Below are positions 27,650 to 64,000 of a DNA stretch of 64,000 bases, one piece after another. Below the pieces are notes generated by a model. The model was not told the DNA's origin. It saw nothing but the letters and a program-made list of their open reading frames with translations, and did no database searches. Made by a program: the position numbers and the translations under genes. Origin of the DNA: Mycolicibacterium sp. (GTDB lineage: Bacteria > Actinomycetota > Actinomycetes > Mycobacteriales > Mycobacteriaceae); assembly GCA_020637165.1 (NCBI GenBank), contig JACJWN010000008.1, positions 62,001 to 126,000 on the forward strand. Direction: 5' to 3'. Position 1 is the first letter of the stretch. Each line of letters opens with the position of its first letter.

Positions 27650-27746
27650 TGTAGGTTCCGCTTTTCGGTGGCAAAATTCCGCTTTCAGTGGCAAAGCGTT
27701 GGCAATTTTGCCGGAAAGTTGTTAGGTCGGCTAGTCAACTGTTGAC
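27650..27746 (+). repeat. tnsA-proximal (R-type) end of element A
   Basis: Begins TGTAGGTTCCGCTTTTCGG. Two tandem sites of form TTCCGCTTT-N3-GTGGC start at 27656 and 27677, 21 bp apart, followed by a TTGGCAATTTTGCCGG segment. These are the presumed TnsB-binding sites. A perfect odd palindrome, GTCAACTGTTGAC, closes the conserved block at 27734. The same block recurs at 47888 and 62847. Confidence 0.85.
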
Positions 27747-27808
27747 GGTGGAGCGGTCCGAGTGCGACGCTGACGATGCGGTGGTTGCTTCACCGCGCGG
27801 AGCAAGCG

Positions 27809-28546
27809 ATGTCGGTTCCTATCCGCGTGGACTTGAATTCCGCGGTCGTCACCTACCGACCAGCGGCGGGTGAAGAGCGGTCGGTAACCGCTCACGAGGT
27901 GACGCCAAAGGGGTTGTTCGAGGGCCACCCATGGCGCACTTTCCGAAGCTACAACGGCCAGAGGCACTACTCGGGAACGTATTGGTCATCGACCCTTGGT
28001 GACCATGTCATCTACGAATCGCGCCTGGAACTCGCAAATCTCATTGCTGCCGATTTTGATCCCCGTGTTGAGCGGATCGCGGCGCAGCCGTTCCAACTGA
28101 CCGCAGAGGTGGAGGGTCAGCCGCGGCGGCACATTCTCGACTACATATGGGGATCTGACGAAAACCCGATTGTGGTTGACGTAGTACGCCGGGAGCGATT
28201 GAGCTACAACAAGGTTCAGCTTCTTTGCGCTTGGACGCGGGTCGTCGTCGAATCGATTGGCTGGAGTTATCTCGTGGTGTGTGAGCCCGATCCTGTCTGG
28301 ATTGCGAACATTCGCTTCCTTGCGGGTTATCGGCGTGAATGGCTCCTGAACCAGGATGTTCTGAAGGCGATCCGTTCTCACCGACTTCACTTTGCCGGGC
28401 TCTCGGTGGGTGAGACGGAATCACTCTTCAGTGCCCCACGATATCTGGTCCGACCCGTTCTGATGCACATGCTCTGGCGCCACGAATACACCTGTGATCT
28501 AACGCAACCCCTCAGGCCCGCAACACTATTGGAGGTTACATCATGA
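27809..28546 (+). CDS. tnsA: TnsA-like transposase endonuclease subunit
   Basis: A 245-residue TnsA-family nuclease, which in Tn7 cuts the 5' strands at the transposon ends. ATG 27809 (MSVPIRVDLNSAVV) is preferred over ATG 27776 because GGAG lies eight bases upstream; element B keeps exactly this ATG and its ribosome-binding site as a relic. PD-(D/E)XK-like residues are Glu70 (IYESRLELA), Asp111 (HILDYIWG) and Asp124 (VVDVVRRE). The Lys expected two residues after Asp124 is Val126, so activity is uncertain. Its stop overlaps the tnsB start (ATGA). Confidence 0.85.
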   Translation: MSVPIRVDLNSAVVTYRPAAGEERSVTAHEVTPKGLFEGHPWRTFRSYNGQRHYSGTYWSSTLGDHVIYESRLELANLIAADFDPRVERIAAQPFQLTAEVEGQPRRHILDYIWGSDENPIVVDVVRRERLSYNKVQLLCAWTRVVVESIGWSYLVVCEPDPVWIANIRFLAGYRREWLLNQDVLKAIRSHRLHFAGLSVGETESLFSAPRYLVRPVLMHMLWRHEYTCDLTQPLRPATLLEVTS

Positions 28547-30651
28547 GTTTTGCCGGAGTACGGATAGGCACTGGAACGCGATTCGTCTATGACGGCGAAG
28601 TGATCGAAGTTGTAGAGATACATGCAGTCAACGGGCCGCCTGAGGTCCTAGCGCGAGAAGTTCGGACTGAAGTCGTACGTCGAATCGCCCTGAATGAACT
28701 GATGTTCTCGCCCCGGGCACGTCTGCTCAGCGATAGCCCAGTGATCGCGTCGGAAGCCGCCCATGGGATGACCGCCTCACTCGCCTGGTCGGCGGCGTCG
28801 GAGTCGGCACGTTGTGAGGCCCGTGAACGGGCGGCCCACGTTCGTGAGGTGCTGACGGGCTACCGCTCAGGTACGGCGTCGGTGGCCGCCCCCGGAGAGC
28901 CGCGAGCGTGTTACTTGCCCCATCTGACTAAAGGTGCTCGGGTGGGCGCGAAGGCTAAGCAGCTCAACATAGGCAAGCGGACTCTCCTCCGGTGGATCAG
29001 CCGCTACGAGAAAGAAGGAGAAACCGGCCTCCTTCCGCACCTAGCGGTGGAGACGGCTCCGATCAGTCGTCGGTTCGAACTCTTCACCCAATTTGCACTC
29101 GACATCATGCGCGAGCAGGTCGACAAGTCACGACCCACCAAGGACTTTGTCTTCAGACATGCCAAAGCCAGATTGATCGGCACGTACGGCGCCGACGTCG
29201 TTCCCATACCGAGTAAAACGAGGGCCTATGAGATCCTCTCCGAGCTCAACAAGCTGTGTCCGCTATTCACCCTGAGCACCAAGCGCAATCGCGATATCGC
29301 TGGGCGCCCCGTCATGCCCTACGGAAAGCTTCATCCGGCCAGGCCGGGGGAGTACCTGCTGATGGATACGACACCGCTGGACGTTCTCGCACTGGACCCG
29401 CACACACTGCGGTGGGTCGGCGTGCAGTTGACGGTAGCGATGGACTGGTACTCCCGCTGCATCACGGGGCTGCGTCTTAGCCCGGTCTCGACCAAAGCGA
29501 TCGACGCGGCCGCGGTGCTCTATCAATCATTCCGGCCGGTCCCATCCGGCCGTGACTGGCCGGCGGAGGCCGTGTGGCCGCCCCATGGCGTGCCGCGATC
29601 CGTTCTCGTCGAAGCCGATGCCCTGCATCTGGCCAGCGTGTTCGCCGCCAACCCCGCGGTGGTTCCGGAGACGCTGGTCGTCGACCACGGGAAAATCTAT
29701 GTCGGCGAACACCTGACGAGTGCCTGCCGGCGACTCGGAATCTCGATACAGCCCGCACGTGTGCGAGTCGCCCACGATAAGGGCCCGGTGGAGCGATTCT
29801 TCCGCACCGTGCGCGAGGGGTTCCTGCTGGAGTTGCCCGGCTATAAGGGCCCGGATCTGTACTCCCGCGGGGTATTTCCGGAGCGCGAAGCTGTGTTCTT
29901 TATCGACGAATTGGAGGCACTGCTGCGCGAGTGGATTGCCGCGGTGTATCACCGACGGCCCCATGACGGGATCGGTGAGACCGGTCTGTGGGCGCTGAGG
30001 ATGTCCCCGGCGCAGATGTTCGAACACGGCGTCACCCGCGCCGGCTACCTTGAAGCGCCGCGCGACCCGTACCTGGCCTATCACTTCCTCGCAGTGGAGT
30101 GGCGCACCATCCAGCACTACGGATTCGAGATCGACCGTAGGTACTACCGCGGGCCGGGCCTCCAAGGCTATGCCGCCGGCGAGAAAAGCCCTTTCCAAGA
30201 GAGGGGAGGCCGGTGGCCGGTCCATGTTGATCCCGATGACGTCCGGCAGGTGTACTTCTTCGATCTGAAGAACACCAACCAATGGCACCCGCTTGCCTGG
30301 ACCGAAGCGGCGATGTGCGACGGGCCGATGAATGAGGACGGCCTGCACTTCGCACGAGATCTGGTGCGCGCGAAACACCACTACTTCGACGACAAACTAG
30401 CGCTCGCCGAGATGCTCGAACGTCGGCACCTCAGCCAGGGTCACACGATGGCCGAGCGGATAGCAGCCCTGCGGCTATCCCGTGAGCAGTCAACACTGAG
30501 CATTGACGCCAAGACCGCGGTTACGGTCGCCGAATTGCCCACCGCGCAGCGTCTTCTCCACGGTGACCCTCCCGGGTTTGAGGACGAACTCGATGACGAT
30601 CCCCTCATCGACGACGGCCACTTCTACGACGAGGTCCTGGAGGACGTATGA
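28543..30651 (+). CDS. tnsB: TnsB-like DDE transposase
   Basis: A 702-residue transposase that binds the ends and cuts and joins the 3' strands. A DNA-binding HTH segment (AKQLNIGKRTLLRWISRYEK) lies near residue 145. The RNase-H-like core has the three acids: Asp near 275 (YLLMDTTPLD), Asp near 380 (TLVVDHGKIY) and Glu near 417 (DKGPVERFFRTVRE). A Mu-type C-terminal barrel and a tail that would contact TnsC follow. It overlaps tnsA and tnsC by four bases each, giving one translationally coupled operon. Its length is close to Tn7 TnsB (702 residues). Confidence 0.92.
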   Translation: MSFAGVRIGTGTRFVYDGEVIEVVEIHAVNGPPEVLAREVRTEVVRRIALNELMFSPRARLLSDSPVIASEAAHGMTASLAWSAASESARCEARERAAHVREVLTGYRSGTASVAAPGEPRACYLPHLTKGARVGAKAKQLNIGKRTLLRWISRYEKEGETGLLPHLAVETAPISRRFELFTQFALDIMREQVDKSRPTKDFVFRHAKARLIGTYGADVVPIPSKTRAYEILSELNKLCPLFTLSTKRNRDIAGRPVMPYGKLHPARPGEYLLMDTTPLDVLALDPHTLRWVGVQLTVAMDWYSRCITGLRLSPVSTKAIDAAAVLYQSFRPVPSGRDWPAEAVWPPHGVPRSVLVEADALHLASVFAANPAVVPETLVVDHGKIYVGEHLTSACRRLGISIQPARVRVAHDKGPVERFFRTVREGFLLELPGYKGPDLYSRGVFPEREAVFFIDELEALLREWIAAVYHRRPHDGIGETGLWALRMSPAQMFEHGVTRAGYLEAPRDPYLAYHFLAVEWRTIQHYGFEIDRRYYRGPGLQGYAAGEKSPFQERGGRWPVHVDPDDVRQVYFFDLKNTNQWHPLAWTEAAMCDGPMNEDGLHFARDLVRAKHHYFDDKLALAEMLERRHLSQGHTMAERIAALRLSREQSTLSIDAKTAVTVAELPTAQRLLHGDPPGFEDELDDDPLIDDGHFYDEVLEDV

Positions 30652-31760
30652 CTACCAAAGCGCCGTCCCGCAGACCCGCCGAGCCCCATTTGGACAACCT
30701 GACCCTCTCCCGCAAAGAGGGATGGCGAGCATGTACCGAAGCCCCGAAGCGGATCGCCCCCGAGCTGCTGACGAAGAGCCAGATACGCCGCCTCAGTGAA
30801 GCGGCGGCCGACATCTACAAGCAGCGACGAGAGGACTGGCATAACAACCTCGGACCGCTGAAGACGCCGCAATTGGCTGCGCTGCACGAGGATCTGTGGG
30901 ACATCCTCGACAGCAACGCCCAGGACGGTGACCACGCCAAGGGAGCGGTCGCACTCGATGGCTATCCAGGACTGGGAAAGTCGACGGCGGTCGAGGCATT
31001 CGCCAAAGAGTTCCACCGACGAGAGATCCGCCGCCATGGTGAATTCACCGAGGTCGGCGATGAGCGGTGGCCGGTATGCCGAATCGGTATGCGCGGCAAC
31101 ACTTCCATGAGGGATTTCAACCGCGCGATGTGCGAGTTCTACGGCCACCCGGGATGGCGTGGCAGCACCGAGGAGTTGGGAAGACGGGCACTGGACTATG
31201 TGCTCAAGTGCGAGACGCGGCTGCTGATCATCGACGACCTGCACTTCCTGCACTGGCAGAACAAAGGCGGTATCGAGATCAGCAACAACTTCAAGTACAT
31301 CGTCAACGACTTCCCGATCACGCTGGTCTCCATCGGTATCGGTCTGATCGAACGCGGAGTCCTCATGGATGCCTCTTACGACGAACTGCTCGCACAGACC
31401 AGCCGCAGAACCACCGTTCTGACGATGGAGCCCTACCTCCTCAAGACCGAGTCGCAGCGACGTGACTGGAGAACCCTCCTAACGACCATCGAGCAGCGCC
31501 TCGTTCTCGGTGACAAACGCATCGGCATGCTCGCTGAAGACCTCTCCGACTACCTCTACGAGCGCAGCACCGGCCACATCGGTTCGCTGATGGACCTGAT
31601 CCGGCGGGGATGCGTCCGCGCCATCCGAACCGGCAAGGAGACACTCAACCGGCAGCTGCTGGACACCATCAAGATCGACAGCGCCGCTGAGAAGGGACGT
31701 AAGGAACTCGCCGCGGCATTCCGCACCCGGAAGCTCACCACCAAGCTCAAAGCGTCGTGA
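30648..31760 (+). CDS. tnsC: TnsC-like AAA+ ATPase, transposition regulator
   Basis: A 370-residue AAA+ protein linking the target selector to the transposase. Walker A is GYPGLGKST near residues 105-113 and Walker B is LLIIDDLHFL near 192-200. A sensor-1 region (FPITLVSIGIGLIERG) follows. The first 90 residues (HLDNLTLSRKEGWRACTEAP) are likely the TniQ/TnsB-contacting arm. Tn7 TnsC is longer (about 555 residues); this compact size resembles actinobacterial TniB-like ATPases. ATG overlaps the tnsB stop; tniQ starts four bases after its own stop. Confidence 0.92.
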   Translation: MTTKAPSRRPAEPHLDNLTLSRKEGWRACTEAPKRIAPELLTKSQIRRLSEAAADIYKQRREDWHNNLGPLKTPQLAALHEDLWDILDSNAQDGDHAKGAVALDGYPGLGKSTAVEAFAKEFHRREIRRHGEFTEVGDERWPVCRIGMRGNTSMRDFNRAMCEFYGHPGWRGSTEELGRRALDYVLKCETRLLIIDDLHFLHWQNKGGIEISNNFKYIVNDFPITLVSIGIGLIERGVLMDASYDELLAQTSRRTTVLTMEPYLLKTESQRRDWRTLLTTIEQRLVLGDKRIGMLAEDLSDYLYERSTGHIGSLMDLIRRGCVRAIRTGKETLNRQLLDTIKIDSAAEKGRKELAAAFRTRKLTTKLKAS

Positions 31761-31763: not shown

Positions 31764-34367
31764 ATGAGCGTGACCGTCGTGCGCACACCGCCCCTGCGCG
31801 TCACCCCGGCTGCCGGTGAAGCGATCGACTCGTGGTTGGAACGCATCGCGCACCGCTGCAACGTGACCTGGCGGGAGCTGCGGGTCACACAAGGCGGGGT
31901 GATCCCGGCCGGCTCGGACGCCGACCGTTGGATTGGATGTCTCACCACAGAGCAGCGCGCGGCCCTGAACCTGTTCACCGGTATTGATCCGGTTGCGTTG
32001 CGCGCCATGACGCTGGAGGGCTATCCGGCGATTGCCGCCGGCATTGATCCCTGTACCGGTCTGGAGGCGGCGAAGTACCCGTGGCGGCACACCCACGCCT
32101 CCCGGTTCTGCCCGTTCTGCCTTGCAGAGACCGGCGGTGCGTGGCGCCTCGTGTGGCGCATGGTGTGGTTCTTCGCCTGTCCCAGGCATCATTGTCTGCT
32201 TGCGCATCGCTGCCCGGAATGCGGCGCCCCTCAGCGCCGTGGGCCCGTTTCGGGTGTTGTCCCGCAACCGGGACACTGCTCGGCACCTGTGAGTTCTTCG
32301 CCGAAGGACGTCGGTCTTCGATGCGGCGCGGACCTCACGCAGGCACCGGTCATCGCCTTGTCCCCGACCAGCGCGCTGCTCGAAGTGCAAGCAGTCATCG
32401 CCGAGACGATCCTTCACGATCAGGCGAATTTCGGCATTTACCAATCGAATCCGACGCCCGTGCCGCAGGTACTGGCTGACGTTCGCGCAATCGGGGACAA
32501 GTATCTAGCGGCTCTCGACCGAGGTGCCGTCAGCCCGCGATTCCCCGCTGCCGTCATGAGGGAATATCGGGATCTCTCTGATGAGGAGCGCACCGCAGCC
32601 GGGCGTGTGCCAGCGCGCGCCGTGCCTGCCGTCATCACTGCTATCGGCGCAACTGCAGCCATCGCAGTCGTGGGCCAGAGCGAACTTCGGGCGGCCGGCG
32701 CTGTCCTGTCGTCTATCTGGCCGCCGGGGAATCAAGGCAGAATCTCGTTATCCATCACCATGACCGGGCGACTCGGTGGCGATACCAGCGCGGCCCTGCG
32801 GGGTAGTTACCTGGAATGTCTAGCCCCGAAACTCGGTGCTGCCGAACAACTCCAATATCGAATCGGCACAACGTTGCCCACCAAGCCGGCCACCAACCTC
32901 GATCTCGTCCGGATCATGGCCACCCGCATTCCCACGATGCTGTGGTCCCAGTGGTCGCTGCGGCTGGCAGAACAGAACCTGTATCAGCGGTTCCTGCGTT
33001 CCGTGCTCTCGGTGGGTCTACTCCTGATTGGCCACGACATTAGAGTCGAAGAAGCGATCGCGGCCCTGGGCTGCCCGCAAGCACGGGCGAGCTTTCATGC
33101 TGGAATGCGCAATTTGTCGAAATCACCTCACTGGCCGGATGTCCGGAGTGCGCTCTACCGCTTGTCCGACTATCTGCGGGTGCACGGGTCGCCCATCAAT
33201 TACCACCGCCGCCGGCAGCTGAATTTCGATGGCCTGCTGACGGAACCGACCTGGCGAAGAATCTGCCGGGAGACAACTACCAGACCTGAAGGCATAACAG
33301 CGGTACGGACGTTTCTCATCGAACGCCTCACTGGGACTTCCCAATTTCGCACACCAGTGCCGAAACACCTGGAAGCCCAGCATTCCGCGACGTACCGAAT
33401 CCCCCTACGACTGACCCCCGAACTCAACGCCGCGCTGATCCGGCACGCTGAGCACTTCCTCGCCCAGCGCCAAATCCGGAATGAACCCGTTCAATGGAGT
33501 CCGCCGATTTCCCTTCTGGAGGGCCTCCATCTGCCAACCAATGGTGTATCGGTTGACGTCGACGAGATGCACCGATTAGTCAACCGTTGGCGCCACGGGG
33601 ACCTCTCCACCGCCGTCATACTCAAACGGCTCGGAGTCAGCGCCGAGGTCTTTCGGCAGGCCTGCGAGGAGAGCCCGACCCCTCGCGAACCGCGCCGTCC
33701 CTATCGGCGCACGGTGCCGAAGCCCCAACCTGCATCCGAGATGGCGCGCGCCGCTCTGCCGCCTGATCGGTTGCGACGGCTTTATGAAGTTGAAGGCCAG
33801 AGCCTCCGCGGCATCGGCGCCTCGATCGGGGTCTCACGCCAAACGGTCCTTCACTTGGCCCACGACTACGGGATTGTCATCACGCCGCATGGCAGGGGTA
33901 GGTACCACATCGACCCACAGTGGCTGCGTCAGCAGTACACCGAGAAAAAACGCTCACTGAGTGAGATCAGCGCCGAATGCGGTGTCAGTGTGGGCTGCAT
34001 AGTGAGTGCCGCTCGCCGCGCACAGATTCCTATGAGGGGACTCAGTCGTCGTTCTGCCGAAGAAGTCCTCGCAAACAGGAACGTTCCGCGATGGTTGGTG
34101 CCGGCCGTAACAACACAGGGTGGATGGGAACGGCTGCAGCGACTGCCCGACATCGCTTCGCACGAATCGTTCGCCGCCGCCGGACGAGCCCTCGGGGTGC
34201 CCGGCTTTAGTCTGGGAGCGCAAGTCGCCCGCGTCGAGCGAGACCTGGGCGGCCCAGTGCTCATCCGGGCGACCGAACACCACCCGCTGCGGTTGACGCG
34301 CTTGGGGAAGAAAGTTGTCGCCGCGGTAAGCGCCCTGCAACAAGCGGGTGGCCCCGCTGCAAGCTAA
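31764..34367 (+). CDS. tniQ: TniQ/TnsD-like target selector with C-terminal HTH domains
   Basis: An 867-residue TniQ-family protein, the likely reader of the dnaB 3' attachment site. The N-terminal TniQ domain (LRVTPAAGEAIDSWLERIAH) carries zinc ligands near residues 115-155 (RFCPFCLAET, ACPRHHCLLA, RCPECGAP). After a long middle region come two HTH motifs (SLRGIGASIGVSRQTVLHLA; SLSEISAECGVSVGCIVSA) near residues 680-750. The last 70 residues resemble a LysR-type winged helix (FAAAGRALGVPGFSL ... LRLTRLGKKVVAAV). The final gene of the tns operon, it converges with and overlaps the second tniQ by four bases. Confidence 0.88.
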   Translation: MSVTVVRTPPLRVTPAAGEAIDSWLERIAHRCNVTWRELRVTQGGVIPAGSDADRWIGCLTTEQRAALNLFTGIDPVALRAMTLEGYPAIAAGIDPCTGLEAAKYPWRHTHASRFCPFCLAETGGAWRLVWRMVWFFACPRHHCLLAHRCPECGAPQRRGPVSGVVPQPGHCSAPVSSSPKDVGLRCGADLTQAPVIALSPTSALLEVQAVIAETILHDQANFGIYQSNPTPVPQVLADVRAIGDKYLAALDRGAVSPRFPAAVMREYRDLSDEERTAAGRVPARAVPAVITAIGATAAIAVVGQSELRAAGAVLSSIWPPGNQGRISLSITMTGRLGGDTSAALRGSYLECLAPKLGAAEQLQYRIGTTLPTKPATNLDLVRIMATRIPTMLWSQWSLRLAEQNLYQRFLRSVLSVGLLLIGHDIRVEEAIAALGCPQARASFHAGMRNLSKSPHWPDVRSALYRLSDYLRVHGSPINYHRRRQLNFDGLLTEPTWRRICRETTTRPEGITAVRTFLIERLTGTSQFRTPVPKHLEAQHSATYRIPLRLTPELNAALIRHAEHFLAQRQIRNEPVQWSPPISLLEGLHLPTNGVSVDVDEMHRLVNRWRHGDLSTAVILKRLGVSAEVFRQACEESPTPREPRRPYRRTVPKPQPASEMARAALPPDRLRRLYEVEGQSLRGIGASIGVSRQTVLHLAHDYGIVITPHGRGRYHIDPQWLRQQYTEKKRSLSEISAECGVSVGCIVSAARRAQIPMRGLSRRSAEEVLANRNVPRWLVPAVTTQGGWERLQRLPDIASHESFAAAGRALGVPGFSLGAQVARVERDLGGPVLIRATEHHPLRLTRLGKKVVAAVSALQQAGGPAAS

Positions 34368-36406: not shown

Positions 36407-36453
36407 AGCGACCCGCTCCGCAAACTCGACTCCGGAATCTAAGCGTAATGCCA

Positions 36454-36471
36454 TGCCCTACTAGTAGGGCA
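36454..36471. promoter_or_regulatory. 18-bp perfect palindrome between tniQ2 and XRE gene
   Basis: TGCCCTACTAGTAGGGCA reads identically on both strands. It lies 48 bp before the tniQ2 start and just before the XRE reading frame. Such a dyad between a repressor gene and its divergent neighbour is the usual form of a repressor operator. It would let the XRE protein control both itself and the second TniQ. Confidence 0.7.
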
Positions 36472-50257: not shown

Positions 50258-50357
50258 CGTGGCCCCCTGGTCGACGAAGGACGTACCGCGTCCTGACGTG
50301 GATTCCACGCTACCCGTGCTGACCCTCACGGCATTTCGGCCTCGCTGAACCGGACTT

Positions 50358-52176: not shown

Positions 52177-52236
52177 GATGCCCAACCTAATCACCGAGCC
52201 ACTCTCGGTCGGTTCGCGTCCGGCCCGAGCCGGCAA

Positions 52237-52260: not shown

Positions 52261-52324
52261 CGCACAAGAACCCTGTGCTCACGGGGAAGCCTGGTAGCCA
52301 GCGGATCACGCGGACGGAGAACCC

Positions 52325-54703: not shown

Positions 54704-54716
54704 CAGCCCGGCGCGT

Positions 54717-55124: not shown

Positions 55125-55211
55125 GGTGTTTCCCCCTCATGCGGCCCGTCACGGGTTCCTCTTCACCGAATTTGGCACGCCCATCCACCGGGTGGTGCGA
55201 CCGCAGGCTGT

Positions 55212-55234
55212 TCTTTATCGAATCTTCACAGAAC
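55212..55234. promoter_or_regulatory. Direct-repeat box 2, DUF302/DUF305 divergent region
   Basis: TCTTTATCGAATCTTCACAG has TCTT at 55212 and 55223, 11 bp apart, about 90 bases before the DUF305 start. It shares the core CGAATCTTCACA with boxes 3 and 4. Confidence 0.7.
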
Positions 55235-55305
55235 GGCTAGGACACCCCTATCAACGCGCGCAAGGCTGGAAGCCGAACGAACGTGACGACAACGAAAGGT
55301 ATGTG

Positions 55306-56079: not shown

Positions 56080-56090
56080 GAGGAGAACCC

Positions 56091-56321
56091 GTGTCCCAGA
56101 CACAGACCTACCGGGTCCGGGGCATGACGTGCGGGCATTGCGTCGGGGCGGTGACCAGCGAGCTTCAAACGCTGGGCACCGTCACCGACGTCGCCGTCGA
56201 TCTTGTCCCGCAAGGTGATTCGACCGTGACCGTCACCAGCTCAGCCGCCTTGGATGCCGGGGCGGTGCGCGATGCGATCACGCGTGCCGGTTACGAACTG
56301 GTCGGCACACCCGCGGGCTGA
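56091..56321 (+). CDS. CopZ-like heavy-metal-associated chaperone
   Basis: A 76-residue HMA domain protein from GTG 56091, preceded by AGGAGGAG. The copper motif is RGMTCGHCVGAVTSEL near residues 11-26, with both Cys. The ferredoxin-like fold continues through VDVAVDLVPQG-type strands to AGYELVG. It would carry Cu(I) to the ATPase, whose own N-terminal domain lacks these Cys. Its last 31 bases overlap the convergent sensor-kinase gene. Confidence 0.93.
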   Translation: MSQTQTYRVRGMTCGHCVGAVTSELQTLGTVTDVAVDLVPQGDSTVTVTSSAALDAGAVRDAITRAGYELVGTPAG

Positions 56322-57451
56322 CCCTCACCCCGTGGCGCCGACGTCGCGGACGCCGGCACCGTTGCGGTGAAGGTGGTGCCGTGCCCGGGCCCGCGGCTGG
56401 TCACACTGACGTGGCCGCCGTGGGCCTCGGTCAGGGCTTTGACGATAGCCAGCCCGATACCGGAGCCGCCGCGTCCACGGTCGCGGGCGTAGTCGGCGCG
56501 GTAGAACCGCTCGAAGAGGTGCGGCAGGTGCTCAGGGGCGATCCCTTCGCCGTCGTCGGCGACGGTGAACACCACCTCGGTGCCGGTGCGGGTGGCCGTC
56601 AGGCTGACATGCCCACCGCACCGGGTGTGGCGCAGCGCGTTATCGAGCAGGTTGCCCAGCACCTGCATCAGCCGTTGCCGATCGGCCCACAAACGCCCAC
56701 CATTCGTCCGCGTGGTCAGGGTCACCCCCTTGACGGCGTACCGTTCGGCGGCAACAGCTTTCACCGCGCCGACGAGCTCATCGACGTCGACCCACTGCGG
56801 GGTGATCGCGGCGTGGGCGTCTTCGGCCTGGGCCAGCGCGGCGGCGTCGTTGGAGAACCGCACCAGCCGACCGGTCTGCTCGCGCAGCATCGCAATGGTT
56901 GGCGGGTCAAGGGTTTTCACGCCGTCCTCGACGGCTTCGAGGTAGGCCTCCAGGACCGACACCGGGGTGCGGATCTCGTGGGCGAGGTCACCAAAGAGTT
57001 GGCGGCGGGTGGACTCCACCGACTGCAGGCGCTGCGCCATCCGGTTGAACGCCACCGCCAGCTCGTCGAACTCCTCCCCGAGTCTCGGTGGAGCCACCCG
57101 GATGTCGTAGCGGCCCTCGGCCACCGCGGAGGCCGCCGCGGAGACCTCGGCGATGGAACGCTGCAGGCGCCGGCTCAGGTAGGCGGTCACCACGAACGCG
57201 GTCGACGCGGCCACCGTGATCGCCACCGCGATCGACAGCGCGGTCGCATGCTGATAGGCCTGCTCGGCGTGGAACTGCTCGTTGGAGTCGTGGGCCACCC
57301 CGGCCAGGTGCAGATGCTCACGGAACAGCGGCGGACCGACCAACGAGGCCACCACCCAGGTGGTCACCCCGCCGGCGAGCAGCACCAGAGTCTGGGCCAG
57401 CAACAGCCGCCGGCGCATACCGAACCCGGTGCGCGTTACGGGCGCGGTCAT
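56291..57451 (-). CDS. Sensor histidine kinase of a copper two-component system
   Basis: A 386-residue membrane kinase from ATG 57451 (MTAPVTRTGFGMRRRLLLAQ). Two membrane segments bracket a short periplasmic loop of about 35 residues (REHLHLAGVAHDSNEQFHAE, His-rich). HAMP, then the phospho-acceptor His158 in LAHEIRTPVSVLEAYL, and the ATPase N, G1 and G2 boxes (LGNLLDNALRHT, DDGEGIAPEHL, GGSGIGLAIVKAL) follow. Its ATG overlaps the regulator's stop (ATGA). Copper sensing is inferred from the neighbouring genes and the His-rich loop. Confidence 0.9.
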   Translation of the reverse strand: MTAPVTRTGFGMRRRLLLAQTLVLLAGGVTTWVVASLVGPPLFREHLHLAGVAHDSNEQFHAEQAYQHATALSIAVAITVAASTAFVVTAYLSRRLQRSIAEVSAAASAVAEGRYDIRVAPPRLGEEFDELAVAFNRMAQRLQSVESTRRQLFGDLAHEIRTPVSVLEAYLEAVEDGVKTLDPPTIAMLREQTGRLVRFSNDAAALAQAEDAHAAITPQWVDVDELVGAVKAVAAERYAVKGVTLTTRTNGGRLWADRQRLMQVLGNLLDNALRHTRCGGHVSLTATRTGTEVVFTVADDGEGIAPEHLPHLFERFYRADYARDRGRGGSGIGLAIVKALTEAHGGHVSVTSRGPGHGTTFTATVPASATSAPRGEGQPAGVPTSS

Positions 57452-58194
57452 TCCCCGCTGCCCATCCGGTAGCCCACCCCACGGACCGTGAACACGAACC
57501 GCGGATCGGCGGCATCGTCGCCGAGCTTGCGGCGCAGGTGCCCGAGGTGAACGTCGACCAAATGGTCGTTGCCGACCCACGGTTCGCCCCAGACCGCGTC
57601 GATGAGCTGGCGGCGGCTCCACACCACCCCGGGCCGCGATGACAGTGCCGCGAGAATGTCGAACTCGGTGCGGGTCAACGGGATCGACTCGCCATCAAGA
57701 AACACCTGCCGGCTGGCGACGTCGATCGACAGCGGCCCGAACGCCCGCGGTGGAGCCTCTACGGCGGCCCGGACCAGAGCCACGGGCACCGCGCGGGGAC
57801 GGCGCAGCATCGCCCTGATCCGGGCGACCAACTCCCGCGGGCTGAACGGTTTGGTCACATAGTCATCGGCCCCGACCGACAATCCGACGATCGTGTCCAT
57901 CTCGGTGTCGCGGGCGGTCAGCATCACCACATAGGCATCGGAGAACGTGCGCAACTGCCGGCAGACCTCCAAGCCGTCGATGCCCGGTAATCCCAGATCC
58001 AGCACCACCACATCGGGGTCGACCTCGCGGGCCACCGCCAGCGCGTCGGCCCCGGTATGGCAGACGGTCACCTCGAAGTGCTCGCGGGTCAGATAGCTGG
58101 CGACCACGTCGGCCAGCGCCGCCTCGTCGTCGACCACCAGGGCGCGATAGCCCAGGTCGGCGCCGCCCGCAACGGGCTCGGGGATCAGATCCAT
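57448..58194 (-). CDS. OmpR/PhoB-family response regulator
   Basis: A 248-residue regulator from ATG 58194 (MDLIPEPVAGGADLGYRALV), with GAAGG upstream. The receiver has Asp22-Asp23, phospho-acceptor Asp66 (VVLDLGLPG) and Lys115 (YVTKPFSP). The C-terminal winged helix (LTRTEFDILAALSSRPGVVW, LGHLRRKLGDDAADPRFVFT) is of OmpR/PhoB type and would bind 11-bp direct repeats. It is divergent from the multicopper oxidase across box 3 and probably controls all four boxes in element B. Confidence 0.93.
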   Translation of the reverse strand: MDLIPEPVAGGADLGYRALVVDDEAALADVVASYLTREHFEVTVCHTGADALAVAREVDPDVVVLDLGLPGIDGLEVCRQLRTFSDAYVVMLTARDTEMDTIVGLSVGADDYVTKPFSPRELVARIRAMLRRPRAVPVALVRAAVEAPPRAFGPLSIDVASRQVFLDGESIPLTRTEFDILAALSSRPGVVWSRRQLIDAVWGEPWVGNDHLVDVHLGHLRRKLGDDAADPRFVFTVRGVGYRMGSGE

Positions 58195-58230
58195 GCCTTC
58201 ATCGTGCCGTGCCGACGCAGCGCTTCCGCG

Positions 58231-58253
58231 TCTTGAGCGAATCTTCACACAAC
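58231..58253. promoter_or_regulatory. Direct-repeat box 3, regulator/oxidase divergent region
   Basis: TCTTGAGCGAATCTTCACAC has TCTT at 58231 and 58242, 11 bp apart. It lies 70-90 bases before the oxidase and about 40 before the regulator start, so it could also give autoregulation. Confidence 0.7.
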
Positions 58254-58320
58254 CAACACCAAACCCCCGGGCAGCGGGGAGCACAGTGGAAGCAGAACTC
58301 CACGACGAGGGGACTGGTAG

Positions 58321-59940
58321 ATGAGCAGGCAGGTTCTTGCCGCCACAACGCTGAGCCGACGCGGCTTCCTCGCCGCGAGCGTGCTGGGCGGCGCGGCGCT
58401 GGTCGCCTGCAACCGTTCCGCCACCGCGCCCAACGGCGCCGGTACGACCGATCCGATCGCGGCGGCCGAAGCCGCCCGCCCCCACACCGGAAAGACGGTC
58501 ACCGCCCGCCTGGCCCCCGGTCCGGCCGACGTCGACCTCGGCGGAACGCGGGCGCAGACTCTGGCCTACAACAACGCGGTTCCGGGCCCGATGATCCGCG
58601 CCAACGTCGGTGACGAGATCGCGGTCACCGTGGACAACGGTCTGGACCATCCGACGTCGATGCACTGGCACGGGCTGGCGGTGCGCAATGACATGGACGG
58701 GGCAGCGCCGGCCACCCCCAACGTCGATCCCGGGAAGAGTTTCACCTACCGGTTCACCTCGCCCTACCCGGGCACCTACTGGGCGCACCCGCACACCGGG
58801 CTGGACACCGACTACGGCCTGTACGTGCCGGTCATCATCGACGACCCTGCCGAGCCCGGCCGTTACGACGCCGAGTGGATCGTGATGCTCGACGACTGGA
58901 CCTCCGGAGTCGGCAGCAGCCCCGAACAGATCTACCAGGGACTGAAGTCGATGGGCGGCGGGTCCGGCCAGGGTCCGATGGCCGGCATGCCCGGCATGGG
59001 CCAGATGCCCGGCATGGGTGGCATGGGTGACATGGGACATATGCCCGGCATGGGGGGCATGGGCCAGATGCCCGGAATGGGCGGGATGGGGTCGATGCCC
59101 GGCACCCCCGGCGTGGGTGGTGCGTCCAGCAGCAATCTGCTCGGCGGCGACGGTGGCGACGTCACCTACCCCTACTACCTGATCAATGGCCGTATCCCCT
59201 CGGCGGCAACGACATTCACCGCCAGGCCCGGGCAGCGCATCCGCATCCGCATCATCAACGCCGGAGCCGACACCGCCTTCCGGGTCGCCTTGGCGGGTCA
59301 CCGGATGACGGTCACCCACACCGACGGATTTCCGGTCGTGCCCACCGACGTCGACGCCCTGCTGCTCGGCATGGGGGAGCGCTACGACGTCGTCGTCACC
59401 GCCGGGGACGGGGTGTTCCCGCTGGTGGCCTCCGCAGAAGGCAAGAACGCCGTGGCCCGCGCCCTGCTGTCCACCGCGACTGGGAGCGCGCCTGATGCTG
59501 CTTTCCGGCCACCGGAGTTGACCCGTCTTGTCGGCACTGTCGACACCTTCACCGCCACACCGCAGGTGCAGTTGCCGACCACCAGCGATCTGGCTCTGCA
59601 GGCCCGGCTGACCGGCACGATGATGGCCTACGACTGGGCGATCAACGGTCGGCCCTACGACCAGACAATCCCCCTGACCATCCAGGAAGGGCAGCACGCC
59701 ACGCTGACGTTCACCAACAACACCATGATGTGGCATCCCATGCACCTGCACGGCCACACCTTCCAGGTCATCAAGGCCGACGGCAGCCCGGGGCCGCGCA
59801 AGGACACCGTCATCGTCAAACCCATGCAAACCGTCACGACCAGACTGGCCGCCGACAACCCGGGAATCTGGATGCTGCACTGCCACAACGCCTATCACAT
59901 GGACGCCGGGATGATGACCACCCTCAACTACACCGGCTGA
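58321..59940 (+). CDS. Multicopper oxidase (MmcO/CopA-like), Tat lipoprotein
   Basis: A 539-residue exported oxidase that would oxidise Cu(I) to less toxic Cu(II). The start MSRQVLAATTLSRRGFLAAS has a Tat twin-Arg motif and lipobox ALVAC. Copper ligands are HWHG near residue 115, HPHTG near 155, HPMHLHGH near 472 and the HCH(N)AYHMDAGM type-1 site near 520. A Met-rich insert (repeats of MPGMGGMG) of about 50 residues lies between domains and could bind Cu(I). It leads the 58,321-60,795 gene group under box 3. Confidence 0.95.
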   Translation: MSRQVLAATTLSRRGFLAASVLGGAALVACNRSATAPNGAGTTDPIAAAEAARPHTGKTVTARLAPGPADVDLGGTRAQTLAYNNAVPGPMIRANVGDEIAVTVDNGLDHPTSMHWHGLAVRNDMDGAAPATPNVDPGKSFTYRFTSPYPGTYWAHPHTGLDTDYGLYVPVIIDDPAEPGRYDAEWIVMLDDWTSGVGSSPEQIYQGLKSMGGGSGQGPMAGMPGMGQMPGMGGMGDMGHMPGMGGMGQMPGMGGMGSMPGTPGVGGASSSNLLGGDGGDVTYPYYLINGRIPSAATTFTARPGQRIRIRIINAGADTAFRVALAGHRMTVTHTDGFPVVPTDVDALLLGMGERYDVVVTAGDGVFPLVASAEGKNAVARALLSTATGSAPDAAFRPPELTRLVGTVDTFTATPQVQLPTTSDLALQARLTGTMMAYDWAINGRPYDQTIPLTIQEGQHATLTFTNNTMMWHPMHLHGHTFQVIKADGSPGPRKDTVIVKPMQTVTTRLAADNPGIWMLHCHNAYHMDAGMMTTLNYTG

Positions 59941-59993
59941 CATCCGTTCAGCCGCAACGAGCTCACACCGAGAGAAAAGAAGGAGAGGTTCCC

Positions 59994-60269
59994 ATGATGT
60001 TCTGGTCCGACCACGACATGAGCGGATGGGGATACGCAGGCATGGTTATTGGAATGGTGTTGTTCTGGGCCCTCATCATCGTCGGGATCGTCGCCCTGAT
60101 CCGATACACCGCCGGCGCACCCCAAGCGAGAGCCGTAACTCAGTTGCCGCATTACAGCGATTACGAGTCACCCGAGCAGATGCTCGCTGCCCGCTTCGCC
60201 CGCGGGGAAGTCGACGAAACCGAATATCGCCACCGCCTCGACGTGTTGCGGGCCACCGCGCGCCAGTGA
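59994..60269 (+). CDS. SHOCT-domain membrane protein
   Basis: A 91-residue protein. A membrane segment (YAGMVIGMVLFWALIIVGIV, ALI) follows a short Met/His N-terminus (MMFWSDHDMSGWG). The C-terminal SHOCT motif is PEQMLAARFARGEVDETEYRHRLDVL in consensus form. ATG 59994 has AGGAGAGG upstream. It follows the multicopper oxidase by 53 bp, a common pairing in actinobacterial copper loci. Function is unknown. Confidence 0.82.
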   Translation: MMFWSDHDMSGWGYAGMVIGMVLFWALIIVGIVALIRYTAGAPQARAVTQLPHYSDYESPEQMLAARFARGEVDETEYRHRLDVLRATARQ

Positions 60270-60288
60270 ACAACCAGGCGGCCTGGCT

Positions 60289-60795
60289 GTGAGTGAACGG
60301 GCCCTCGCCTATCCGAGGGTGCTGCGCGCGATGCACCGCCAGCACTTCGCGGTGCTGGCCACCAGCGACACCGATGGCCATCCCGCATCTGCGGGGGTGA
60401 GCTACGGCCTGACGCCGTCTGGGGCGGTCATGTATGTGATGACCCGGCGGCACCTGCAGAAGGCCCGCAATGTCGCCGCCAATCCCGCTGTTTCTCTGGT
60501 GATTCCGGTGTCGCGCAGGCTGCTATGGCCGGTGCCGCCCGCAACGATTCAACTGCGCGGCCGCGCGGCGATCTGTGATTGGGCCGACGCCGAGGGCACC
60601 CAGGTCTTCTCCGGCTTCCTCCTTGGCCGCCAAATCCTCACCAGCTACCGCGAACTGCACGACCGAGGCGACTCCCGCATCTGCTTCCTCCGGATCGACC
60701 TGAATCCGGTGATCCGCACCTACCTGCTCGGCACCTCAATCTGGCGGGCGCGGCGCGACATGGAATCCGGCAGCGCCAGGGCGATTCGCCCGTGA
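60289..60795 (+). CDS. Pyridoxamine-phosphate-oxidase-like flavin/F420 protein
   Basis: A 168-residue split-barrel protein from GTG 60289 (MSERALAYPRVLRAMHRQHF). Segments FAVLATSDTDGHPASAGVSY, VMYVMTRRHLQKARNVAANP and VSLVIPV are typical of the PNPOx-like/FDOR family, which bind FMN or F420. The C-terminus (RICFLRIDLNPVIRTYLLGT) is intact. It follows the SHOCT gene by 19 bp in the oxidase transcript. A reductive role in copper stress is possible but not shown. Confidence 0.8.
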   Translation: MSERALAYPRVLRAMHRQHFAVLATSDTDGHPASAGVSYGLTPSGAVMYVMTRRHLQKARNVAANPAVSLVIPVSRRLLWPVPPATIQLRGRAAICDWADAEGTQVFSGFLLGRQILTSYRELHDRGDSRICFLRIDLNPVIRTYLLGTSIWRARRDMESGSARAIRP

Positions 60796-60836
60796 GCGCC
60801 ACCAGAAGGACTACCGCCCGTCTACTGGCTTCTCGG

Positions 60837-60859
60837 TCTTGAGCGAATCTTCACAAAAC
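60837..60859. promoter_or_regulatory. Direct-repeat box 4, before the GGM-repeat protein
   Basis: TCTTGAGCGAATCTTCACAA has TCTT at 60837 and 60848, 11 bp apart, almost identical to box 3. The next gene starts at 60992, 133-155 bases downstream. No other promoter candidate is clear in this 200-bp gap. Confidence 0.7.
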
Positions 60860-60991
60860 CAATACACAACCCACCGGCCCATGGGCGCACAGTCGAATTA
60901 GGCCCGCCAAGCGGTCGGAACACGGGCAGCGCGGGGGCCGCTCCGAATGTGCCAGCGCACGGCTAAGCATCACCAGAGAGGAACCAGCACA

Positions 60992-61426
60992 ATGACCGAA
61001 TCCCCAGAATCCACAACGGTCGTCTCACCGGTGACCACCGCCGAAGACGTCCACCGAAACAACCGGCTCTACCGCGCCCTGGCATGGGTCGGCATCGTGG
61101 CCGGCATCCTTTTCATCATCGCAGTGGTCTTCTTCTCCGGATTCTTCGCAGCCCGCGCCTCGGGCGGCTACGGGTGGCACCGGGGCTCGCAGAGCGGGCA
61201 GATGCAACCCGGCGGCACCATGGGCGGAGGCTGCCCCATGATGCAGATGCAACCGGGCGGAATGGGTGGCATGGGACAAGGTGGCATGGGACAGGGCGGT
61301 ATGGCGCCTGGTGGGATGCCCGGCGGTATGGGACCCGGCATGATGCCCGGCATGGGGCCGGGTGGGATGACAGGGCCGACCCCCGGCTCGACAACGACGA
61401 CGCCACCATCGGCCGGCCAACGCTAG
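60992..61426 (+). CDS. Single-pass membrane protein with Met/Gly repeats
   Basis: A 144-residue protein from ATG 60992 (MTESPESTTVVSPVTTAEDV), with GAGAGGAACC upstream. One membrane segment (VGIVAGILFIIAVVFFSGFF) is followed by an outside tail of MQPGGMGGMGQGGMGQGGM-like repeats and a CPMM motif. Met-rich tails of this kind bind Cu(I). It stands alone under box 4. The family is not recognised; a periplasmic copper buffer is a reasonable guess. From 61,427 to 61,582 there is no gene. Confidence 0.7.
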   Translation: MTESPESTTVVSPVTTAEDVHRNNRLYRALAWVGIVAGILFIIAVVFFSGFFAARASGGYGWHRGSQSGQMQPGGTMGGGCPMMQMQPGGMGGMGQGGMGQGGMAPGGMPGGMGPGMMPGMGPGGMTGPTPGSTTTTPPSAGQR

Positions 61427-61582
61427 GACGTTCCCTTCCGGACTATCCAGACCCGATCCAAAGCGGCTCCGCACGCCGGAGCACCCGCACCGAACCACGC
61501 TGACAACTGAGATCCATCTCGAGAAGCCGGGGCGGGAACACGCCGCCCGCGAGTCGTTTCGGTTCCAGCACAACGGGTTCCG

Positions 61583-62707
61583 CTACTGGTGGGATTCGGC
61601 AATCAGAACGGCGGGGTGCCCGTCGCGGTCGTGTGGGATGGGGTAGTAGCGGCGGTGGGTGGCGGGGTCGACAGCCACGACATGGGCGTCCTCGGCGAGG
61701 AATTCGGGCCCGGCGCCGGTCAGTGTCTGGCCCTGTAGGTCAAAGGTGGTGACGATGCCGCTCTCGGCGGCGACGACGAGGCGGTGCGCTCCGGGGTCAT
61801 AGGCCAGCACGTCGGGGTTTTGGCCGACCGTCGTGGCTGCGGTGACGGTGCGGGTGGTCAGGTCCACGGTGAGCAGGGTGTCGTTGTGATCGCAGGCCAC
61901 GAAGGCCAACCGGTCGGTGCTGTCGATCGCTAACCCGTGGGGATGGTCGCAACCGGGCAAGGCAATCCGGTCGCCAACCTTCATTGATGCCGGGTCGATC
62001 ACGGCGAGGTCGTTGGCGCCCTGCACGGCCACCAGCATCAGATCGGCGATGGGGTCGTAGCCGACATTGCCGACCTCGCTGCCGGCGTCGACGGTTCTCA
62101 GTGGGTGCAGATCGCCTGCGTCGACGACAGTTTCGGTGCCGGCGGTTTCGTTGGTGGTCCAGATGGCGTTGCGCCGCGAATCGTAGGCAATGCCATCGGG
62201 ATAATCGCCGGTGGGCGCGCGGCCGACGACCTGCCCGCTCGTCTCGTCGATAGCCACAATCTGGTTGTCACCGGTCGCGGTGGCGAACACCCGGTTCAGC
62301 GGGGCGACCGCGAGCACGCCGTGTACCTGAGCCAGAGCGGGGATGGTGCGCACCACCCGATTGGCGTGAACGTCAACCTCGATGACCTCACTGGCTCCCA
62401 AATGGGCGATGAACATCAAGCCGCGCGAGCTGTCGATCGTGGCGTAGTCGAAGCGGGAGTTGTTGCCCGGCAACACGATTTCGGCCGGCGGGTGCCCCGA
62501 TGGTGTCGGGACCGTGTTGCAGGCCGCGAGGGTCAGAGCCGCCGCGATCACCAAACGGGCACAGACACCACGACTCTCTGCGGGTGCCGAGTCGAGCACC
62601 CACGGCGTCTTCGACGGCCGGGAAATGGCGATAGATCCATGCAACCACCGCGTCAACAGCATCGGAAAGAGTGCCGGGGTGTGAACATCCTGTGCCAGGG
62701 ATCGCAC
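61583..62707 (-). CDS. Second YVTN beta-propeller lipoprotein
   Basis: A beta-propeller protein of up to 374 residues. The lipobox LTLAAC appears at about residue 60 when read from 62707, so a start further in, near GTG 62599, is more likely. Blades include GLMFIAHLGASEVIEVDVHA, RVFATATGDNQIVAIDETSG, NAIWTTNETAGTETVVDAGD and LAFVACDHNDTLLTVDLTTR. It differs clearly from the propeller at 49,166, so it is not a recent duplicate. It is the last gene of element B and its 5' side reaches the L-type end. Confidence 0.75.
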   Translation of the reverse strand: MRSLAQDVHTPALFPMLLTRWLHGSIAISRPSKTPWVLDSAPAESRGVCARLVIAAALTLAACNTVPTPSGHPPAEIVLPGNNSRFDYATIDSSRGLMFIAHLGASEVIEVDVHANRVVRTIPALAQVHGVLAVAPLNRVFATATGDNQIVAIDETSGQVVGRAPTGDYPDGIAYDSRRNAIWTTNETAGTETVVDAGDLHPLRTVDAGSEVGNVGYDPIADLMLVAVQGANDLAVIDPASMKVGDRIALPGCDHPHGLAIDSTDRLAFVACDHNDTLLTVDLTTRTVTAATTVGQNPDVLAYDPGAHRLVVAAESGIVTTFDLQGQTLTGAGPEFLAEDAHVVAVDPATHRRYYPIPHDRDGHPAVLIAESHQ

Positions 62708-62740
62708 TCAGAACGGCACAACCGTACGGTTCTCGGATTC

Positions 62741-62841
62741 GCCACAAAAAGCGGAAAAACTCCCTCGCCAAGCAGAGCGGAAAAACCCAGAAGGCTGAGC
62801 TCACGGCCGTATCGGTTCGCCAATAGAAAGCGGAACCTACA
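62741..62841 (-). repeat. Distal (L-type) end of element B
   Basis: Three inverted sites GCCA-N6-GCGGAA lie at 62741, 62767 and 62819, the same spacing as in element A. The terminus AGCGGAACCTACA is the exact complement of the R-type TGTAGGTTCCGCT. The similarity to element A extends outward to about 62,716. Confidence 0.85.
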
Positions 62842-62846
62842 GACGA

Positions 62847-64000
62847 TGTAGGTTCCGCTTTTCGATGGCCAAATTCCGCTTTTGATGGCAGTAGGTTGGC
62901 AATTTCGCCGGAAAGTTGTTAGGACGGCTACCCAACTGTTGACGGTAGAACCGTCCCCGAATCAGCATGGCTACTGCAGCTGCGGCGACTTCACGGAAGA
63001 TCATGCCGACCGCTGGTACGGCGCGGCCGTTCCCACTCTGACGGGTCGAGAATAGATACCCGAACTAGCAGTGGTCGGCCAGCGGCCAGCCCACCAGCGC
63101 TAGGGCGTGTCCCGTAACCGTTTCGGGGTGGGGCTGGCAGTGTCGGGAGGGTGTCGCGTTTGCAGGTGCTCTCCGATGAGATGTGGGCTCAGATTGAGCC
63201 GTTGATGCCGGTGGCTTCAGCCAAGGGCGGCAGGCCCTTTCGTGATCACCGACTGGTGGTGGAGGCGATCATCTGGCGGTATCGGACGGGTTCGCCGTGG
63301 CGGGATGTGCCTGAGTCCTTCGGGGCGTGGAAGACCGCGTGGCGCCGCCATGATCAGTACAGCAAGGACGGCACCTGGGATGCCATCCTGGCCGCGGTGC
63401 TCACTGAGGCCGCTGACGCCGATCTGATCGACTGGGCGCTGAGTGTGGACTCCACGGTCAACCGTGCCCATCAACACGCCACGAACCTCCCGCGGGACAC
63501 AGGGGGATCCGTCGAATTACAAGAATCTGTCCGTCGAGCCTGCTGACCATGGCATTGGCCGCTCACGGGGCGGGCTGAGCAGCAAGATTCACCACCTCGT
63601 TGACGGTGCCGGGATGCCCCTGGTGGTGCTGTGCGGGCCCGGTCAGGCCGGGGACGCCCCGATGTTCCCGGTTCTGCTCAGCCACCTGCGGGTGGCCACC
63701 AGCGGTCCGGGACGGCCCCGCACGCGCCCCGACAAAGTCCGCGGGGACAAGGCGTACTCGTCCAAAGCGATCCGTGAGTTGCTGCGGTCACGGGGCATCC
63801 AGGCAGTGATCCCGCAGCCCGCCGACCAGATCGGCCACCGCAAGCGCCGCGGCAGCGCTGGCGGACGCCCACCGGCATTCGATGCCGAAGACTACAAGGG
63901 CCGCAACGTCGTTGAACGCAGCTTCCAACGCACCAAGCAGTGGCGCGGCATCGCCACCCGGTATGACAAACACAACCTCAACTACCGTGGCGGCGCCGTC
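62847..64000 (+). mobile_element. Third Tn7-like unit, element C, 5' part
   Basis: An R-type end begins at 62847, 5 bp (GACGA) after element B. It is nearly identical to that of B for about 90 bp, through TTGGCAATTTCGCCGG and CAACTGTTGACGG, then diverges. No tnsA relic is visible. From 62,950 to 63,102 there is no gene, then an IS5-family element starts. The other end lies beyond the window, so it is not known whether C is complete. Confidence 0.75.
63151..64000 (+). CDS. IS5-family transposase in two frames, partial
   Basis: The first frame, GTG 63151 to a stop at 63546, has the IS5 N-terminus (DEMWAQIEPLMPVASAKGGR) and the first catalytic Asp in SVDSTVNRAHQHA. From about 63,506 the homology continues in the +1 frame (DPSNYKNLSVEPADHGIGRS, GDKAYSSKAIREL, NVVERSFQRTKQWRG) to the window edge without a stop. 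The frame change is at a run of five G near 63,502-63,506. IS5 members of this group use two overlapping frames, so a programmed shift is possible; decay is the alternative. A left inverted end is near 63,103 (GGGCGTGTCCCG). Confidence 0.85.

Follow-up and report, generated by a model that had tools for sequence, protein, structure and literature searches.

An array of Tn7-like units behind dnaB

The 64,000-bp stretch of DNA analysed here (the window) spans positions 62001–126000 of a 257,831-bp contig in a 3.85-Mb draft Mycobacterium genome (G000; 32 contigs, 94% complete), and just past dnaB, the gene for the replicative helicase, it carries a tandem array of Tn7-like transposon units. The following 96 kb of the contig were also read and are numbered on past 64000. 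The five front units of the array, E1, E2, E3a, E3b, and E4, lie between one pair of 5-bp copies, CGACC, that encloses 70,927 bp on this single contig. We consider it probable, with considerable room for doubt, that the island was built by Tn7-like transposons homing to the 3′ end of dnaB and that its front, E1–E4, entered as a multi-unit block.

Right (R) tips (TGTAGGTTCCGC) begin at 27650, 47888, and 62847 in a single orientation, and left (L) tips (..CGGAACC[T/G]ACA) finish at 47882 and 62841 in that same orientation, which are exactly the three R and two L ends listed in an initial annotation made from the sequence of the window. Judged by their sequence, the ends have the features of this transposon type, namely TGT..ACA tips, arrays of TnsB-type repeats, and an asymmetry between L and R. 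Over 132 nt, the R ends at 47888 and 62847 match the first (R1) with 81% and 76% identity; between the two L/R junctions in the window the identity is 83% over 247 nt. This similarity of ends and junctions to one another is far above chance.

The array does not stop at the three units first counted but holds at least seven units or remnants. It continues for ~53 kb beyond the window, giving totals of seven clear L and four clear R ends. L tips there finish at 72509, 87655, 98576, 111765, and 114818, with a degenerate L tip near 117046; the fourth clear R tip is at 87660, and two more, at 98585 and 111771, are divergent and have a different repeat (TTCTCA, not TTCCGC). No R tip follows the L tip at 72509. 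When the whole genome was probed for the ends, every match fell on this contig, 4 for a 130-bp R-end probe and 7 for an L-end probe. On its far side, the island ends between ~117.05 and 123.2 kb, where homology to the array flank of another genome (G182) begins. The spacers between units read, in order, GGTAC, GACGA, none at 72509, AAAA, CGACCACT, and GCTGC. The claim that neighbours stand exactly 5 bp apart thus holds in the window (GGTAC, GACGA) but not beyond it, the AAAA before the R tip at 87660 being 4 bp long. Nesting of one unit in another was ruled out within E1–E4 because the next end from R1 onward is an L end, not an R end.

Complete tnsABC and tniQ frames are present in E1 only. 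As initially annotated, no other part of the window has transposition genes of the Tn7 kind by tblastn with TnsA, TnsB, TnsC, and TniQ or by Pfam and NCBIfam, and over the whole array tblastn finds tns genes in E1 and, broken, in E5. E2, E3a, and E4 have complete ends and lack transposase genes; E3b is without an R end. The description of E2 as a copper regulon of ~15 kb between proper ends was accurate, both tips being present.

The 3′ end of dnaB is the attachment site

The elements attach at the 3′ end of dnaB, a site that relatives in Streptomyces and Nocardia use as well. In 20 mycobacterial genomes, counting the plasmid-borne dnaB of M. alvei pJCM12272, which has an R tip behind it, 11–21 nt separate the R tip from the last conserved Arg codon; the distance is 14–16 nt in three Streptomyces and 9 nt in a Nocardia. 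The last 58 aa of DnaB find matches in 387 of 396 genomes of the genus, and at least 17 of these 396 encode a TnsB relative on the dnaB contig, ~5 kb or less beyond the gene. Further TnsB relatives are found on a 396-kb M. avium plasmid (70%) and behind the dnaB of the M. alvei plasmid (53%).

Among the 16 genomes nearest by the dnaB C terminus, 10 have a clear R tip ≤20 nt past dnaB; two of the remaining six loci look decayed, one has another repeated end, two have none, and one is cut by a contig end. Altogether, 16 of 30 dnaB loci were read, 13 others did not parse with the tip pattern, and at one of the 30, in G372, no R tip was found. Two further arrangements were seen at this site. In G390, a different repeated end, TGTCGAGATGCAACGAAGATTGACAA, begins 14 nt past the dnaB Arg codon and recurs inside the array of G182; it possibly marks another element family. 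In G106, two R ends follow in succession, ~90 bp apart, immediately behind dnaB.

One target duplication encloses five units

E1 alone has different flanks, CGACC before it and GGTAC after it. Because CGACC stands outside R1 and again after the L tip at 98576, the latest insertion looks like one E1–E4 block and not like E1 by itself. With the CGACC-bounded block excised, 18 nt would separate the Arg codon from the older, divergent R tip, a distance within the observed range.

The dnaB-side R-tip flank was compared with the L-tip flanks in eight genomes in which both kinds could be read (24 L flanks; the second L flank of G032, of another end type, was left out). An exact 5-bp match was found in five genomes: CGACC in G000 (1 of 7 L flanks), CACAC in G167 (1 of 4), TTTTT in G182 (1 of 3), GCTAA in G106 (1 of 1), and CTTTT in G329 (1 of 2), or 5 of the 24 flanks overall. 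When the dnaB flanks were permuted among the eight genomes, five matches arose in 18 of 40,320 orders, with a mean of 0.9. A rerun with five more flanks of other end type or degenerate (29 in place of 24) left the result unchanged. The CACAC pair of G167 lies in a CA tract, on two contigs, and encloses an E1-type unit (E1′), GGTGC, and E2, so that one duplication round several units is found in that genome as well as, on one contig, in G000. In G016, where the dnaB flank is GCGGC, one of the four L flanks (CGGCT) differs by a one-base shift.

Table 1. Features of the window and of the array that continues beyond it
Feature	Position	Strand	Remarks
dnaB, replicative helicase	25007–27640	+	start codon uncertain; 3′ end is the attachment site
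CGACC, left 5-bp target duplication copy	27645–27649
CGACC, right copy	98577–98581		after L end 98576
E1	27650–47882		autonomous unit
R end of E1	27650–27780	+	repeats TTCCGCTTTnnGRTGGC, presumed TnsB sites
tnsA-like	27776–28546	+	NF033179, E=1e-67
tnsB, DDE transposase	28543–30651	+	D275, D381, E417 invariant in 26 sequences
tnsC, TniB-type AAA ATPase	30648–31760	+	TniB 1.2e-9, AAA_22
TniQ/TnsD-like target selector	31764–34367	+	867 aa, C-terminal HTH
Second TniQ protein	34364–36454	-	696 aa
E1 cargo, defence-like	37012–41874	+	Mrr nuclease, helicase, 14 helicase-associated repeats
Insertion sequences within E1	42184–45892		IS21-type (istA/istB) and DDE_5-type
L end of E1	47752–47882	+	tip CCGACA in place of CCTACA
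Spacer GGTAC	47883–47887		between E1 L end and E2 R end; GGTGC in G167
E2	47888–62841	+	14,954 bp; cargo-only, copper
R end of E2 and tnsA stub	47888–48036	+
Copper-type P1B ATPase, CopA-type	52325–54703	+	E2
CopM-family metallochaperone	54979–56079	+	E2
Sensor kinase and response regulator	56291–58194	-	E2
Multicopper oxidase, copper_res_A-like	58321–59940	+	E2
L end of E2	62717–62841	+
Spacer GACGA	62842–62846		between E2 L end and E3a R end
E3a	62847–72509		cargo-only, iron uptake
R end and start of E3a	62847–64000	+	unit ends at 72509 on the contig
E3b	72510–87655		cargo-only, R end lost
E4	87660–98576		cargo-only
E5	98585–111765		older unit, broken transposition genes
E6	111771–114818		older unit; remnants after it

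The transposition machinery of E1

In TnsB, Mu-transpos_C passes its Pfam cut-off and rve_3 falls under its own, and matches to TnsB chains in the PDB reach E=6e-20, with the DDE triad aligning with that of the solved chains. The two TniQ proteins score 1.6e-20 and 2.5e-20 for the TniQ domain. TnsA, for which Pfam gave no match, departs from its relatives in what we take to be its catalytic residues. In a 30-row alignment (some rows being duplicates), Streptomyces, Nocardia, and some mycobacterial relatives show DVK or EVK at the third catalytic block, and the clade of the window shows DVV, DVM, DVT, or DVA; the presumed catalytic Lys of E..D..DxK is Val in E1. Most of this clade has VVDVVRxER where VVDVKP stands in relatives. 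Since the catalytic Lys is missing, insertion may be replicative, or the Val may accompany a shifted active site. Mutations of the tnsA catalytic site are described as stopping cut-and-paste but not replicative transposition (PMC8649781).

Units recur in other genomes

The search of other genomes for arrays of different make-up, suggested by the initial annotation, did reveal the units in other combinations, with E2 in G167 and E3a in G390. At ≥97% identity, E2 occurs in 2 of 41 genomes, its own and G167, in both directly behind an E1-type unit. E2 alone was sought in the same 41 genomes and not found, and among 72,556 plasmid records, 111 of them matching, the top listed match covers 28% of E2 and none reaches 80% coverage. 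G167 is another draft genome, in which dnaB is 80% identical to that of G000 at the DNA level and E2 is 97% identical. Its array runs from an E1-type unit through GGTGC to E2 and then to CACAC, which is also the dnaB flank there. The L end of this E2 is recombinant: it matches E2 of G000 as far as the conserved end, from which the L-end sequence of E4 continues to the tip. Recombination between L ends could have deleted E3a–E4 here or inserted them in the other lineage, or the tip could have been copied by gene conversion. The recombinant end indicates that homologous recombination also reshapes arrays.

E3a of G000 and its copy in G390 differ by 6 mismatches and 9 gap positions over ~8.7 kb (99.94, 99.6, and 99.7% identity in three stretches), compared with 87% identity between the dnaB genes of the two genomes. 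The flanks of E3a are GACGA and TCTTG in G000 and GCTGC on both sides in G390, where the GCTGC copies lie in a CTG tract and on two contigs, with only 10 bp of left flank on the contig. Mis-binning could explain the host genome of this E3a but not its different flanks. The start of the G390 contig (1–19) resembles what we presume to be a sequencing adapter, a small assembly blemish. Stretches of E3b of 3.4–6.2 kb are 98–99% identical in G032, G111, and G257, and these shared E3a and E3b stretches indicate that units travel separately and recently.

A comparable array is present in G016, a one-contig genome, where at least three units lacking tns genes come after an autonomous unit behind dnaB, with the spacers CCTGA, CGGCTGTAG, GGTGT, and GCAG. 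Because neighbouring end subtypes differ in G016, units lacking tns genes need not be satellites of the first unit.

The R end of E2 runs into tnsA sequence, 40 bp of it in G167, with 17 bp of the stretch deleted in G000, and a unit of G329 retains 138 bp of 5′ tnsA; these stubs mark such units as internal deletion derivatives. The resemblance of E3a and E4 to E1 is confined to their first 110 and 85 bp. Although the adjoining DNA is unrelated, E2, E3a, and E4 have kept their ends.

Spacers between units and target immunity

Over 56 loci (0.94 Mb), the junction pattern found 23 distinct joints, ten with a spacer of 5 bp, five with 4 bp, and one each with 3, 7, 8, 9, 12, 16, 17, and 25 bp. The peak at 4–5 bp (15 of 23) corresponds roughly to 5 bp ± insertion jitter. 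Independent draws of an old and a new tip from 13 dnaB distances predict a broad peak at 3–7 bp. A 4-bp spacer would result from a new 5-bp target overlapping the first base of the old tip.

Tn7 is described as strongly inhibiting a second insertion close to an existing copy (PMC11406308), and the initial annotation proposed that stacking at dnaB escapes this immunity. The proposal finds no clear support. In the five genomes with matched duplications, the end adjoining the newest insertion belongs to another type in G000, G182, and G329, has lost its tip in G167, and is of the same type in G106; other-type or tip-less neighbours in four of five are as expected if target immunity works. Same-type joints nevertheless exist, three in G000 and one each in G167, G182, G127, G106, and G032 (those of G127, G182, and G032 could not be linked to dnaB on one contig). 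Target immunity may thus work but be incomplete, or same-type joints may arise by recombination. With same-type and different-type neighbours readable in this way, immunity in natural stacking becomes testable.

Proposed route of assembly and its alternatives

We propose the following route. The TnsD-like TniQ protein would read the conserved end of dnaB, and TnsABC would insert an element 11–21 nt past the gene with its R end facing dnaB, making a 5-bp duplication. Because dnaB stays intact and the site is reusable, newcomers would land between dnaB and older units and displace those outward. The substrate could be any stretch from an R end to a downstream L end with cognate TnsB sites, be it one unit, a cargo-only derivative served in trans by the E1 proteins, or several units together. 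E1–E4 (27650–98576) would have entered in one event with CGACC as its duplication, and the inner spacers GGTAC, GACGA, and AAAA would be fossil flanks of earlier sites. Later, homologous recombination between the conserved ends would remove or swap units. Movement of several units as a block would be the new point here, and the most testable one.

Several observations weigh against this proposal. Three of the eight genomes gave no flank match (G032, 0 of 1; G346, 0 of 2; G016, 0 of 4). TTTTT, CTTTT, CACAC, and the CTG tract of G390 are of low complexity, so that each such match is weaker than 1 in 1024, and in G106, G167, G182, and G329 the two flanks lie on separate contigs. In no genome was the E1–E4 block found elsewhere, and none of E2, E3b, and E4 was seen singly with a duplication on both sides. 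The missing Lys of TnsA also leaves room for replicative insertion. E1 of G000 and its counterpart in G167 are 91% and 85% identical in two stretches and 73% in their L ends, with other cargo, and because the two differ in this way the GGTAC/GGTGC match could be due to chance (~1.6%). The observed spacer peak is sharper than jitter predicts and includes no 6-bp spacer, though 6 bp should be as frequent as 4. In the dnaB regions (6.7–80 kb each) of seven TnsB-bearing genomes (G172, G347, G020, G072, G160, G255, and G297), no L-spacer-R joint was found, so tandem joints are not universal. Finally, the evidence is sequence comparison throughout, from which the insertions themselves are deduced.

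The strongest competing explanation, which we nonetheless regard as unlikely, is that the array grew in place, with circular or linear single units recombining via their conserved ends into one CGACC-flanked resident. An outer duplication and random inner spacers would then need no block transposition. The L end of G167, E2 in its interior and E4 at its tip, shows that ends do recombine, spacer lengths gather at 4–5 bp, and, with none of 10 scanned E1 proteins matching a resolvase family, recombination would be needed after replicative transposition. Against growth in place stand the spacers of 7–25 bp, which require another origin, and the occurrence of GGTRC before E2 in two genomes whose outer duplications differ.

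A different question is whether cargo-only units move at all. They could be dead relics that ride in blocks with an autonomous unit and have never moved in trans, an explanation that we find more doubtful still. The preservation of the ends of E2, E3a, and E4 beside unrelated DNA speaks against it, as does the near-identical E3a of G390, which is flanked on either side by GCTGC and does not lie in 5-bp contact with the end of any other unit (on a 10-bp left flank). Other findings fit relics well: both copies of E2 lie behind an E1-type unit, E2 is a deletion derivative, E3b has no R end, and the tns-less units of G016 differ in end subtype from its autonomous unit. On balance, mobilization of cargo-only units in trans is likely. 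The GCTGC pair of G390 favours movement of a cargo-only unit. For E2, initially proposed as a satellite, complete ends without a transposase fit that status, and its position behind E1-type units only speaks against it; we regard E3a as a likely satellite and E2 as a plausible one.

Plain serial insertion at dnaB, unit by unit, with the CGACC pair a coincidence, is very improbable. Stacking with the newest unit in front is seen in G106 and G182, but serial insertion should leave the same 5-mer on both sides of E1, where CGACC and GGTAC are found, and on this ground it was rejected as the source of all spacers. A chance match of CGACC with one of seven L flanks has a probability of ~0.7%, and four other genomes match too. 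Movement of the whole 35 kb as one unit only, which the initial annotation named as a refutation of its proposal, is close to what the CGACC pair around E1–E4 suggests. That pair speaks against a one-by-one arrival of E1 and E2 at this locus, though not against the view of the units as separate modules. An assembly artefact joining repeated ends can practically be dismissed: the draft is in 32 contigs and the ends are repeats, but cargo differs across the joints, the joint of E1′ with E2 recurs in the draft of G167, and joints are present in the one-contig genome G016.

Entry of E1–E4 as a block might be one instance of a more general behaviour, which we put forward tentatively as possible rather than probable. 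If TnsB skips inner ends, an engine unit and its cargo-only wagons would move jointly between dnaB sites as trains, with the couplings keeping the duplications of earlier hosts. In that case the route travelled could be read off the spacers, and an array would gain a wagon at each stop. The combination of a TnsA without its Lys and no recognized resolvase may mean that units move replicatively and that homologous recombination completes the process; the swapped ends would then be explained as well.

The proposed assembly would show, in concrete and testable form, how adaptive islands for copper, iron, and defence are put together and passed between mycobacteria while occupying a safe place in the chromosome. 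It combines a reusable attachment (att) site, cargo-only units, joint movement of several units, and recombination of their ends. The analysis also identifies dnaB as an attachment site of the Tn7 type across Actinobacteria, for which plasmid-borne dnaB offers a vehicle.

Comparison with known elements

Like Tn7 at attTn7 (the 3′ end of glmS), the dnaB elements have TnsA-, TnsB-, TnsC-, and TniQ/TnsD-like genes beside the R end, insert directly beyond the 3′ end of a conserved, essential gene with a 5-bp duplication, and have asymmetric multi-repeat ends (PMC8649781). They differ from Tn7 in their target (dnaB, not glmS), in a TnsA without the catalytic Lys, in having two TniQ proteins, in their end sequences, and in the stacking of several units. 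By host alone, they would fall into clade 2 of the Tn7-like elements, a mainly actinobacterial group (Benler et al. 2021) with which they share actinobacterial hosts and the TnsA/B/C/TniQ set; unlike in our array, no cargo-only units or multi-unit blocks are described for clade 2 in the available text, the word dnaB does not occur in the main text, and adjacent insertion is noted to give multiple ends (PMC8649781). Tandem tniQ genes are described in a second source, whose available text likewise has no dnaB site and no occurrence of the word (PMC10293859). In the wider literature, as far as titles and abstract openings show and with most subscription papers outside the set, no paper was found that treats dnaB as an attachment site of this type or that describes arrays of cargo-only units.

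Parks and Peters (2007, 2009) reportedly described Tn7 islands formed by tandem successive insertions of separate elements at one att site. The dnaB array resembles such islands in reusing one att site and differs from them in having one duplication around a multi-unit block and units without transposases. Mini-Tn7, and by analogy Ds of Ac, consist of ends without transposase genes that are served in trans; compared with such non-autonomous derivatives, the dnaB units are natural, not laboratory constructs, and carry large adaptive cargo, and their service in trans is inferred. In composite transposons, the outer ends of two copies mobilize everything between them. The array behind dnaB is bounded instead by an R end and an L end belonging to a heteromeric transposon, and its inner units are themselves equipped with both kinds of end.

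Cargo and older units

The defence-like helicase gene of E1, with its 14 repeats, contains a perfect 224-bp duplication (41545–42067), and a 99% copy of one of its repeat stretches lies past the insertion sequences (46054–46133), so that the gene has probably been interrupted and partly duplicated. E3a has genes for FTR1, imelysin, DyP, and a P-type ATPase. An insertion-sequence-like stretch with a transposase frame (63104–64041) in E3a is absent from the near-identical E3a of G390. E3b encodes an MFS transporter, a PLP enzyme, a metal ATPase, and a kinase, and E4 a two-component system and mannosyltransferases. In E5, a tnsA homologue (98781–99476), a tnsB fragment (99493–99963), and a tniQ remnant (101180–103303) are left. 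Lying behind the 71-kb block, E5 is a dead autonomous element of the TTCTCA-end family, its tnsB fragment adjoining an IS3-type element, and E6 carries a HipA-like gene.

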